A stretch of DNA of 64,000 nucleotides, taken from assembly GCF_001006045.1 (NCBI RefSeq), contig NZ_CP011267.1, positions 372,001 to 436,000 on the forward strand. The letters are read 5' to 3'. Position 1 is the first letter of the stretch. Each line of letters opens with the position of its first letter. Under the pieces are notes generated by a model, which searched no databases, was not told the origin of the DNA, and saw only the letters and a list, made by a program, of their open reading frames with translations. Position numbers and translations under genes: made by a program. Of the stretch, positions 6,595 to 27,129 are shown one piece after another. This DNA is from Geoglobus ahangari (GTDB lineage: Archaea > Halobacteriota > Archaeoglobi > Archaeoglobales > Archaeoglobaceae).

Positions 6595-6651
6595 GGCCAA
6601 TGATGAATGATGGGCGATCTGACAGGTGATGAGAGGGGAGAGGCTGAGGCT
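6595..6651 (+). ncRNA. Box C/D sRNA (2'-O-methylation guide)
   Basis: All four boxes are present with archaeal spacing: C TGATGA (6601-6606), D' CTGA (6619-6622), C' TGATGA (6627-6632) and D CTGA (6644-6647). A terminal stem forms between GGCC (6595-6598) and GGCT (6648-6651). A TATA-like ATTAATTTC at 6566-6574 lies about 25 bp upstream. The D' guide is 6607-6618 and the D guide 6633-6643. The D guide has only an 8-nt match to 23S rRNA (opposite 22804-22811), so its target is uncertain. No good D' target was found in these rRNA genes. Confidence 0.85.
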
Positions 6652-19509: not shown

Positions 19510-19740
19510 TCAGATTTCTGCCCCAACCACCGTTTGAGTCTTGGTGACGCCCTCAATATCCCGGATGGAGTCAACCGTCTTGTTGAGTTCTGAGAGGCTG
19601 CCCGCCTCGATGATGACCACGAAGTCGAACTCGCCGAAAACGTGGTAAACCTCCCTGACGTTCTTCATCTCCTTTATGGCCTTGTAAACCGCCTTTTCCC
19701 TTCCGGGAGAGACGTTCACCATTGTGACGCCAATAACCAT
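19510..19740 (-). CDS. Lrp/AsnC-type ligand-binding (RAM) domain protein
   Basis: The 76-residue protein is a stand-alone RAM domain: MVIGVTMVNVSPGREKAVY, then VYHVFGEFDFVVIIEA. It has no DNA-binding helix-turn-helix, and such proteins bind amino acids or modulate partner regulators. The ATG at 19740 is chosen because a TATA-like box at about 19760-19768 (minus-strand GGTTTTATGC) is about 25 bp upstream. Longer in-frame starts would cross that promoter. It precedes top6B by 5 bp and may share its transcript. Confidence 0.85.
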   Translation of the reverse strand: MVIGVTMVNVSPGREKAVYKAIKEMKNVREVYHVFGEFDFVVIIEAGSLSELNKTVDSIRDIEGVTKTQTVVGAEI

Positions 19741-19827
19741 GTTCGATACTTGTCCCGAACGCATAAAACCTTTTCCCTGCCTTTTGCAGGGCATAAGGAA
19801 TATATCGCGCCCGCGCCAAAAACCCAT

Positions 19828-19886
19828 GACCGATGATGAGCTGATCCGCCGCTGAGGCGGTGATGAGGCCAGTACGGTCTGAGGTC
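19828..19886 (+). ncRNA. Box C/D sRNA with predicted 16S rRNA target
   Basis: Boxes C TGATGA (19834-19839), D' CTGA (19852-19855), C' TGATGA (19861-19866) and D CTGA (19879-19882) are enclosed by a GACC/GGTC terminal stem (19828-19831 with 19883-19886). A TATA box, GAATATATC (19798-19806), lies about 25 bp upstream. The D' guide (19840-19851) pairs over 11 nt, with one G-U, to the 16S segment opposite 26887-26897. The N+5 rule puts 2'-O-methylation on the G opposite 26893, about nt 237 of 16S. The D guide has no convincing target here. Confidence 0.9.
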
Positions 19887-20283
19887 ACCAGAACCCGAAC
19901 TCGTGGAGATACGCGTGGATGTTCAGCAGGAAGTCGTTGAGCTTGACGAAAGGCACTATCACCGCACCCTTGTGCAAGTAAACGCTGTCGTCTATGAGCG
20001 GGACAACGACCGGCACAACTTTCCTCCCCTCGAGCCTTTCGAGCCTCTCACACCGCTTAGCGTGCTTCTCCGCCTCCCTTTTTATCGCCGACAGCCTGTA
20101 CCAGCCGTGAGTGTACCTCTTCGCATCTATCGCCAGCACGAGTCCATACCTCTCCGCCAGCACGTCAATCTCCGCCCTGCCCTGCTCGTCTTTGAATACG
20201 TGGCGAAACCTTGTCGTGAATCCGTGGTGCTCGAGGATTTCCCTTATCGCTTCCTCAAACTCCTGCCACGTCGAAAAGTTCAT
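19885..20283 (-). CDS. Mrr/PD-(D/E)XK-like restriction endonuclease-fold protein
   Basis: The 132-residue protein shows the nuclease core order: an N-terminal helix (WQEFEEAIREILEHHGF), EIDVLAERYGLVLAIDAK (the D-x(n)-DxK metal site), and a following basic helix. Mrr-like domains cleave or bind modified DNA, or act in repair. The ATG at 20283 lies inside the last codons of the DUF1786 gene (29-bp overlap, different frame), which indicates coupling. With the radical-SAM HhH protein upstream, a DNA maintenance role is a reasonable guess. Confidence 0.75.
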   Translation of the reverse strand: MNFSTWQEFEEAIREILEHHGFTTRFRHVFKDEQGRAEIDVLAERYGLVLAIDAKRYTHGWYRLSAIKREAEKHAKRCERLERLEGRKVVPVVVPLIDDSVYLHKGAVIVPFVKLNDFLLNIHAYLHEFGFW

Positions 20284-21304
20284 GGCTCCTGAGCAGGCTG
20301 ACCATTCCCACATTCCCCACGATCATGACATCGCCAACAGGGTTCGCCTCTCTGAAGTCGGAGAGCTGGGCATTGGGGCCAGTCGCAACAAAATCCCTGA
20401 CCTCCACGACGCTGTCGATGTACGCTCCATGCCCTCCCTGCTCGTAGACAGCATCGTTCGTCAGCTCACCCCTGATGAACTGGCCGACCAGCCTGTTGAT
20501 GTCCATCCTCCTGACTATGGATGTGTGGTGCTCCATGAGAGCGTAGATTCTGCCGTCCCTGTCCACAATCGCGAAGACCGTGTGGCCGTTGCCGAAGTTC
20601 ATCACGAGGGCCGGAAACTCCCTTGCATCGAGCATAGCCCCGGCTATTGCTGAAAACACGGTGTCGATGACGTAGAGCTCGAAGTCTCTGCCCACCCTGT
20701 CCCCGTAATCTCTTACAGCCTCAGCAACGGCCATCATCCTGTTGTAGTGCTCCGGGATTTTCTCTGCAGGGTAGAGGAAGCTGTCGAGGTACGGGCTCTC
20801 CTTCAGAACCCTCTCGAACATTCTGAACCTGAACCTCCTGTTGCTCTCCTCCGGCGAGAAGCCGTGATCCTGAACGGAGATCACGAGCCTGTCTGGCAGA
20901 TTCATGCCAAACGAGGAGAGCATAGATGAGTAGGCATCGAGATCCACGTCTCCAAGCTCTATTTCTACAAGATTCTCATCCTCGGGTCTCTCATCCACAA
21001 TCGTCACGCCCTCAGCCCTCACCCTGTCAAGATCGTCGTTTATTGTCAGGGCGGGCTTCTCGTACGCGTAAACCCTGACCTTGCTCGCAGCCTCCCTTAT
21101 GGCCCTGCTGCTCGGTCCCCCGCCCATTGTGTAGCCGGTGAGCAGGATGTTCCTCCCAGCATCGGCAATCTCTCTGACCCTCTTGGCCACAACCTTCGTC
21201 GGAGAGGGCATGACGGACTTGGGGCAGTTCCTGACGTTCTCCCCCTCAATGTAAAGCAGGAAGTCCTGCGTGCCCGTCCCCACATCGAGCGTGAAAATTT
21301 CCAT
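20255..21304 (-). CDS. DUF1786 family protein (ASKHA-like fold)
   Basis: The 349-residue protein begins MEIFTLDVGTGTQDFLLY, a phosphate-binding turn as in actin/hexokinase-fold ATPases, and has later MNFGNGHTVFAIVDRDG and IVGNVGMVS segments. These features match the archaeal DUF1786 family as I know it. The biochemical role is unknown. Some homologues are annotated by context as related to radical-enzyme activation, and here a radical-SAM gene lies 38 bp upstream. The nuclease gene overlaps its 3' end. Confidence 0.75.
   Translation of the reverse strand: MEIFTLDVGTGTQDFLLYIEGENVRNCPKSVMPSPTKVVAKRVREIADAGRNILLTGYTMGGGPSSRAIREAASKVRVYAYEKPALTINDDLDRVRAEGVTIVDERPEDENLVEIELGDVDLDAYSSMLSSFGMNLPDRLVISVQDHGFSPEESNRRFRFRMFERVLKESPYLDSFLYPAEKIPEHYNRMMAVAEAVRDYGDRVGRDFELYVIDTVFSAIAGAMLDAREFPALVMNFGNGHTVFAIVDRDGRIYALMEHHTSIVRRMDINRLVGQFIRGELTNDAVYEQGGHGAYIDSVVEVRDFVATGPNAQLSDFREANPVGDVMIVGNVGMVSLLRSHELFDVAGV

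Positions 21305-22407: not shown

Positions 22408-25407
<3,000 letters not shown>

Positions 25408-25636: not shown

Positions 25637-27129
<1,493 letters not shown>

Follow-up and report, generated by a model that had tools for sequence, protein, structure and literature searches.

A box C/D sRNA of Geoglobus ahangari with two guides predicted to direct 2′-O-methylation at neighbouring sites of 16S rRNA

Does a short interval between two protein-coding genes of Geoglobus ahangari encode a methylation guide RNA, and which nucleotides would such a guide modify? The species is described in PMC4600277 as an archaeon of the Archaeoglobales growing best at 88 degrees C. The locus lies in the window, i.e., the whole analyzed stretch of 64,000 nucleotides, which is positions 372001–436000 of the single contig (1,770,093 bases) constituting the searched genome. 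A sequence-only reading of the window had placed a box C/D sRNA at 19828–19886 and predicted that its D′ guide targets the 16S rRNA encoded in the same window.

The sRNA gene and its surroundings

The gene is delimited by a terminal stem and comprises both pairs of boxes and two guides; all features are given in window coordinates.

19827–19887 (+): box C/D sRNA gene including its terminal stem, from the RF00095 match, sequence, and homologs
19827–19831 (+): 5′ arm of the terminal stem, TGACC, from sequence
19832–19839 (+): box C, GATGATGA, from sequence and the box pattern
19840–19851 (+): D′ guide, GCTGATCCGCCG, complementary to 16S nt 232–242
19852–19855 (+): box D′, CTGA, the first C of which can pair with 16S G231
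19860–19866 (+): box C′, GTGATGA, from sequence and the box pattern
19867–19878 (+): D guide, GGCCAGTACGGT, complementary to 16S nt 279–289 with one internal mismatch
19879–19882 (+): box D, CTGA, from sequence
19883–19887 (+): 3′ arm of the terminal stem, GGTCA, overlapping the stop codon of a 142-aa ORF on the opposite strand
19799–19806 (+): weak TATA-like stretch, AATATATC, with 5/8 matches to a TATA consensus

The sRNA matches the Rfam family RF00095 (snoPyro_CD) at 19829–19885 with 46.7 bits (E-value 1.3e-6), narrowly passing the family cut-off of 45 bits, and the agreement in this alignment is mainly in the boxes. The strict C–D′–C′ pattern has two matches in the window and none in 100 shuffles; in the whole genome it is found seven times, in six cases together with box D, vs. 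zero in the reversed control. Boxes C and C′ conform to RUGAUGA, boxes D and D′ to CUGA, and the guides to the length of 10–12 nt, the archaeal consensus for which PMC4644070 is our source. Judged by these features, the segment 19827–19887 (+) has the canonical make-up of archaeal box C/D sRNAs and is an ordinary housekeeping guide belonging to a well-known kind of archaeal RNA genes. The family match and the strict box pattern bear out the earlier assignment of the locus, and the box spacing and GACC/GGTC stem noted at that time are present as described, the stem being TGACC/GGTCA.

The sRNA is situated between genes for an AsnC-type ligand-binding protein (19510–19740, reverse strand) and a 142-aa protein (19885–20313, reverse strand), the latter with a weak match to Mrr_cat (23.8 bits at a cut-off of 21). 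The stop codon of the 142-aa ORF, at 19885–19887, falls within the 3′ arm of the sRNA stem, and the ORF ends differently in G001 and G002, two genomes of the same genus with no detected sRNA.

A TATA box had been put forward as support for an independent gene. Scored at eight positions against a TATA consensus, AATATATC is equalled by 43% of 28-mers drawn at random from the window; in this genome, it does not stand out from chance. At the same distance, some 26 nt before the 5′ end, the homologous sRNAs of relatives G013, G016, and G026 have a TATA-like stretch with 7/8 or 8/8 matches, which makes an independent promoter plausible in these three genomes. For the other five homologs, the best match anywhere in 61 nt is 5/8 or 6/8. 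A bacterial-type promoter scan yielded zero promoter matches and is uninformative for archaea. According to PMC7994747, a TATA-like motif accompanies roughly 20% of those archaeal C/D genes that have been studied.

Predicted contacts with 16S rRNA

The 16S gene occupies 25637–27128 (−), and thus window positions 26887–26897 are 16S nt 232–242. The two sites predicted from the guides are as follows.

26887–26897 (−): target of the D′ guide, 16S nt 232–242; predicted 2′-O-methyl at G236, window position 26893
26840–26850 (−): target of the D guide, 16S nt 279–289; predicted 2′-O-methyl at U282, window position 26847

The duplex between the D′ guide and 16S nt 232–242 consists of ten Watson–Crick pairs and one G–U pair, as had been claimed, and the N+5 rule points to G236, which corresponds to E. 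coli G241 in a pairwise alignment. The G at 26893 had been identified correctly in the sequence-only reading, and only its number, about nt 237, was off by one, the nucleotide being G236 with the Rfam 5′ end. The pairing is extended by the first C of box D′, opposite 16S G231, and PMC4644070, where it deals with guide pairing, counts the first nucleotide of box D′. Counted in this way, the D′ guide has nine consecutive Watson–Crick pairs (231–239), and eight without this nucleotide; the threshold applied, at least nine consecutive Watson–Crick pairs including N+5, is thus reached by D′ if the first nucleotide of the box is counted.

The same best 16S score was obtained by 586 of 20,000 shuffled D′ guides, and among the 740 12-mers preceding CTGA in the window minus rRNA genes (the sRNA included), six scored at least as high. 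By itself, the complementarity of the D′ guide is modestly unusual, not rare by chance; one D′ guide alone is suggestive, not decisive. Conservation in relatives, considered below, is stronger evidence than pairing statistics for one guide. Taking all this into account, we regard it as very likely that the D′ guide positions 16S G236 for 2′-O-methylation.

The earlier account of the target stands for D′ and G236; what it overlooked is that the D guide has a 16S target of its own. This guide forms ten Watson–Crick pairs with nt 279–289, interrupted by one internal A·G mismatch, and its N+5 nucleotide, U282, lies 46 nt from G236 and aligns with E. coli U287 in a pairwise alignment. The duplex has two defects, the A·G mismatch at N+8 and T·T at N+1, and its six consecutive pairs fit only the relaxed rule given for double guides in PMC4644070. 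Since the first of these is three nt from the target pair and the second at N+1, methylation of U282 may be poor in G. ahangari. The same best score anywhere in the 16S rRNA was reached by 1,817 of 20,000 shuffled D guides, and scores as high within 100 nt of G236 by 183 of 20,000 (55 for the D guide of G032, and two for that of G013). When both guides were considered jointly, with sites in 16S or 23S rRNA within 100 nt of each other, 14 of 3,000 shuffles attained the observed sum. That the D guide positions U282 for 2′-O-methylation seems reasonably probable.

PMC4644070 defines a double guide as one whose two targets lie in the same rRNA within 100 nt of each other, and the distance of 46 nt between G236 and U282 falls within this range. 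The gene, therefore, likely encodes a double-guide box C/D methylation RNA of G. ahangari.

Conservation in the Archaeoglobaceae and alternative readings

Homologs of the entire sRNA were found by BLAST in four genomes, G013, G032, G027, and G023. The core of the D′ guide between boxes C and D′ occurs in seven of 60 genomes, this one included, and not at all in the reversed control; a looser D′ pattern retrieved the same seven, with one match in the reversed control, in G034. Two of the seven, G016 and G026, were selected by a pattern containing the D′ core, and their D′ fit is partly by construction, whereas that of the other four relatives is not forced, as these were found by the BLAST search with the whole sRNA. 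In all seven genomes, the D′ guide has its best 16S site at G236, scoring 28 in this species and 23 to 26 in the others (the guide of G026 was scanned against the 16S rRNA of G016, its own 16S not being found). Opposite U240, the guide has G in this species and A in the six others, the pairing being kept. Thus, the central claim of the sequence-only reading, that D′ addresses what is now G236, agrees with the family match, the exact pairing, and the same best site in the four BLAST relatives.

Comparison with G013 shows no change at N+3 to N+7 of either guide. Outside this core, D′ positions N+1 and N+2 are paired here and unpaired in G013, and N+9 forms G–U here and A–U in G013; in the D guide, N+1 is unpaired here and paired in G013, and N+8 is a mismatch here and G–U in G013. 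The BLAST similarity stops at the sRNA in three of the four homologs and extends about a dozen bases further in G027, and none of five neighbouring proteins of the window was found by tblastn in the flanks (about 1.5 kb) of six homolog loci.

Within the family, represented by 36 genomes, the carriers are one of seven in g1 (this one), three of three in g8, two of two in g11, and one of three in g12; the other 21 genomes have none. Conservation in related genomes, proposed earlier as a check, is accordingly seen in six relatives, and no homolog was found in the six other genomes of the same genus. A search of a species-genome collection gave 84 stretches matching the pattern, seven of them with all four boxes, namely, six from Archaeoglobaceae and one from Erwinia (L143), the latter taken as chance. 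Two further homologs are L168 and L199. Like the archaeal box C/D sRNAs in general (RF00095; Dennis et al., 2015, PMC4644070, as far as its description of them goes), this RNA has C, D′, C′, and D boxes, two 12-nt guides, the N+5 rule, and double-guide organization; unlike them, its D′ guide together with the four boxes is found only in the Archaeoglobaceae, bar the one Erwinia stretch. Box-like motifs, GGTCTGA and, in L009, also GATGATGA, occur just upstream of the homologous sRNA in L009/L080, L168, and L199, which suggests that these may be tandem sRNA genes.

Neither the D′ core pattern nor its looser version revealed a homolog in the genus apart from this genome; hidden copies are conceivable given incomplete assemblies and degenerate boxes, above all in the four genomes split into many contigs. 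The AsnC-type gene adjoins the gene for topoisomerase VI B in all six other genomes of the genus, and TGATGA in the window orientation is absent from the 250 nt upstream in each; the 142-aa gene is also next door in G001 and G002. Of the matches of covariance model R1 that were read in these genomes, those of G001 and G002 and two from G006 represent C/D sRNAs whose guides differ; the match in G005 does not parse, and there are none in G003 and G004. The 16S segment nt 226–296 is identical to that of the window in G001 and G002, the two genomes whose 16S rRNA was read.

Model R1 scores boxes as much as guides: an unrelated C/D sRNA of G032 with other guides (L282) obtained 47.8 bits, compared to 48.7 for the homolog in G016 and 51.3 for that in G026, and hence the latter two were assigned by their D′ guide, not by the bit score. 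Several candidates were set aside. The BLAST match in G044 (L013, 23 nt) has no C/D architecture, and the second match in G023 (L014) is a C/D sRNA with other guides. Among the 28 further R1 matches or BLAST neighbours that were read, 26 are C/D sRNAs with other guides and two, in G045 and G005, were unparsed; none of them scored above 17 at the G236 site (G006), vs. 23–28, or above 17 at the U282 site (G015), vs. 24–31. The short pattern CTRATCCGC...CTGA gave 16 matches in 14 of 40 genomes, four of which are the sRNA, the remaining 12 being dismissed due to the lack of TGATGA in the preceding 20 nt. A D-guide pattern was found in 13 of 60 genomes, mostly with other guides, and two of its matches (L208, L209) are coding-like stretches.

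The D guide is less uniform. U282 pairing involves all 12 positions in G013 (11 Watson–Crick pairs and one G–U) and ten in G032 and G023. In G016 and G026, the register is three nt over, at C279, with eight pairs and a score of 20, rival sites scoring 19, and a 16S scan with the guide of G027 produced no clear site in this region. Hence, among the seven genomes, U282 is the predicted target in four, the site is shifted in two, and one has no clear site. This raises the possibility that only D′ is productive, at G236, and that the D guide is decayed or orphan in this species. The mismatches at N+8 and N+1, the 1,817 shuffles with an equal best 16S score, and the shifted or indistinct register in G016, G026, and G027 would be expected in such a case, whereas the proximity of the two sites, 46 nt (183 of 20,000 shuffles), and the better pairing of U282 in G013, G032, and G023 are not. 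We consider a single productive guide possible, on the unlikely side, and prefer the double guide.

Another candidate target of the D′ guide is found in the 23S rRNA.

23014–23023 (−): possible species-specific second D′ target, 23S nt 2366–2375, N+5 at G2369; nine Watson–Crick pairs and one G–U pair

Among the four genomes with available 23S rRNA, the best 16S site of D′ scores higher than the best 23S site in three, with a tie in G013 (23 each). In this species only, among the four tested, the fit of the D′ guide to G2369 is about as good as that to 16S, so that D′ might act here on G2369 instead of or besides G236. The duplex energy at 37 C is −20.5 kcal/mol for 23S and −20.0 kcal/mol for 16S, and the N+9 base of the guide, a G in this species and an A in the six others, forms G–U with 16S and G–C with 23S. 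However, with the extra box D′ pair, a base added for 16S only, the 16S duplex has −23.4 kcal/mol; in G013, G016, and G027, which share this 23S stretch, the guide is mismatched to it at N+9 and scores 16, 21, and 19, compared to 23, 26, and 26 for 16S, respectively; and the D guide has its site in the 16S region that D′ addresses. Action on G2369 is, in our estimate, improbable, and G236 is retained as the target of D′.

Guidance of tRNA methylation appears extremely unlikely: when 45 tRNA genes were scanned on their sense strands, D′ had one match with a score of 26 (L250; one mismatch and one G–U), which is below the 28 of the 16S site, the next one scores 20, and the D guide has no sense match above 15. 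Equally little speaks for a chance box pattern or a silent, untranscribed relic, for which one might cite the TATA-like stretch no better than chance and the failure to find a homolog in six other genomes of the genus, since the strict box pattern is absent from 100 shuffles, boxes and guides are kept in relatives despite different neighbouring genes, and positions N+3 to N+7 of both guides are unchanged between this species and G013.

Helix 11 of the 16S rRNA and other guides of the genome

In the RF01959 alignment, 16S nt 235–237 pair with 279–281, G236 pairing with C280, and U282 lies just past the helix; folding nt 225–300 alone yields the same pairs. Thus, the two guides cover both strands of the base of helix 11, in the region of helices 7, 11, and 12. 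The sRNA would assemble with L7Ae, Nop5, and fibrillarin, and the fibrillarin gene is present in the genome. In the resulting RNP, D′ would position G236 and D would position U282 for 2′-O-methylation, and the two duplexes would occupy opposite strands of the helix 11 base and reach into helices 7 and 12. With both strands occupied, the expected substrate is pre-rRNA that is still unfolded, and the RNP may hold the helix 7/11/12 junction apart until released. The sRNA is perhaps also a folding chaperone of 16S rRNA, besides being a methylation guide. The gene anatomy, the complementarity, the conservation, and the mutual pairing of the target strands in the Rfam structure are observed; transcription, RNP assembly, methylation, and the chaperone role are what we infer from sequence data of this kind.

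A chaperone role has been proposed for sRNAs binding two strands of one future helix, Nanoarchaeum equitans sR15/sR17 being proposed as 16S chaperones in the respective section of PMC4644070. There, as here, each guide binds one of the two strands of a future helix, although those strands (helices 28 and 30) are separated by hundreds of nt, compared to 46 nt at the helix 11 base. The shift of the D site also has a counterpart in this source: in Methanopyrus kandleri sR24/sR25, one guide is fixed and indels at the other one shift the target by a few nt; those two RNAs are a duplicate pair within one genome, whereas the shift seen here (U282 vs. C279) is between genera. It is tempting to suggest that the conserved job is to hold the helix 7/11/12 junction of pre-16S rRNA open, while the D-side methylated nucleotide drifts freely, but we see this as a rather doubtful proposal. 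On this view, the junction would fold with or without the sRNA, given that the gene has different neighbourhoods and that no copy was detected in sister species with identical targets.

If the double-guide reading is true, the archaeal methylation map would gain a guide with two sites at the helix 11 base of 16S rRNA, and G001 and G002 would provide a natural control for the effect of methylation or pairing on ribosome assembly near 88 degrees C. A literature search combining helix 11 with archaeal guide terms retrieved no paper; we make no claim that the sites are unpublished, and the RiboMeth-seq sites of P. furiosus are said in PMC7758197 to be reported elsewhere.

Several other features of this genome can be mentioned. 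An RF01959 search finds one 16S gene, whereas a table in PMC4600277 gives two rRNA operons. The window contains a second C/D sRNA at 6596–6649 (+), matching Rfam sR1 with 50 bits. Its D′ guide pairs near 16S C1364 with one mismatch, and C1364 aligns with E. coli C1402, which is ribose-methylated in that species. The same scan predicted other double guides, L113 for 23S G833 and U858, and L110 for 23S G1983 and G2034. The D guide of L113 (G000:C1:1047859) forms 12 Watson–Crick pairs out of 12 with the G833 site, its D′ guide being directed to U858, and this D guide is also present in an sRNA of G001 (L074) and of G002 (L283).
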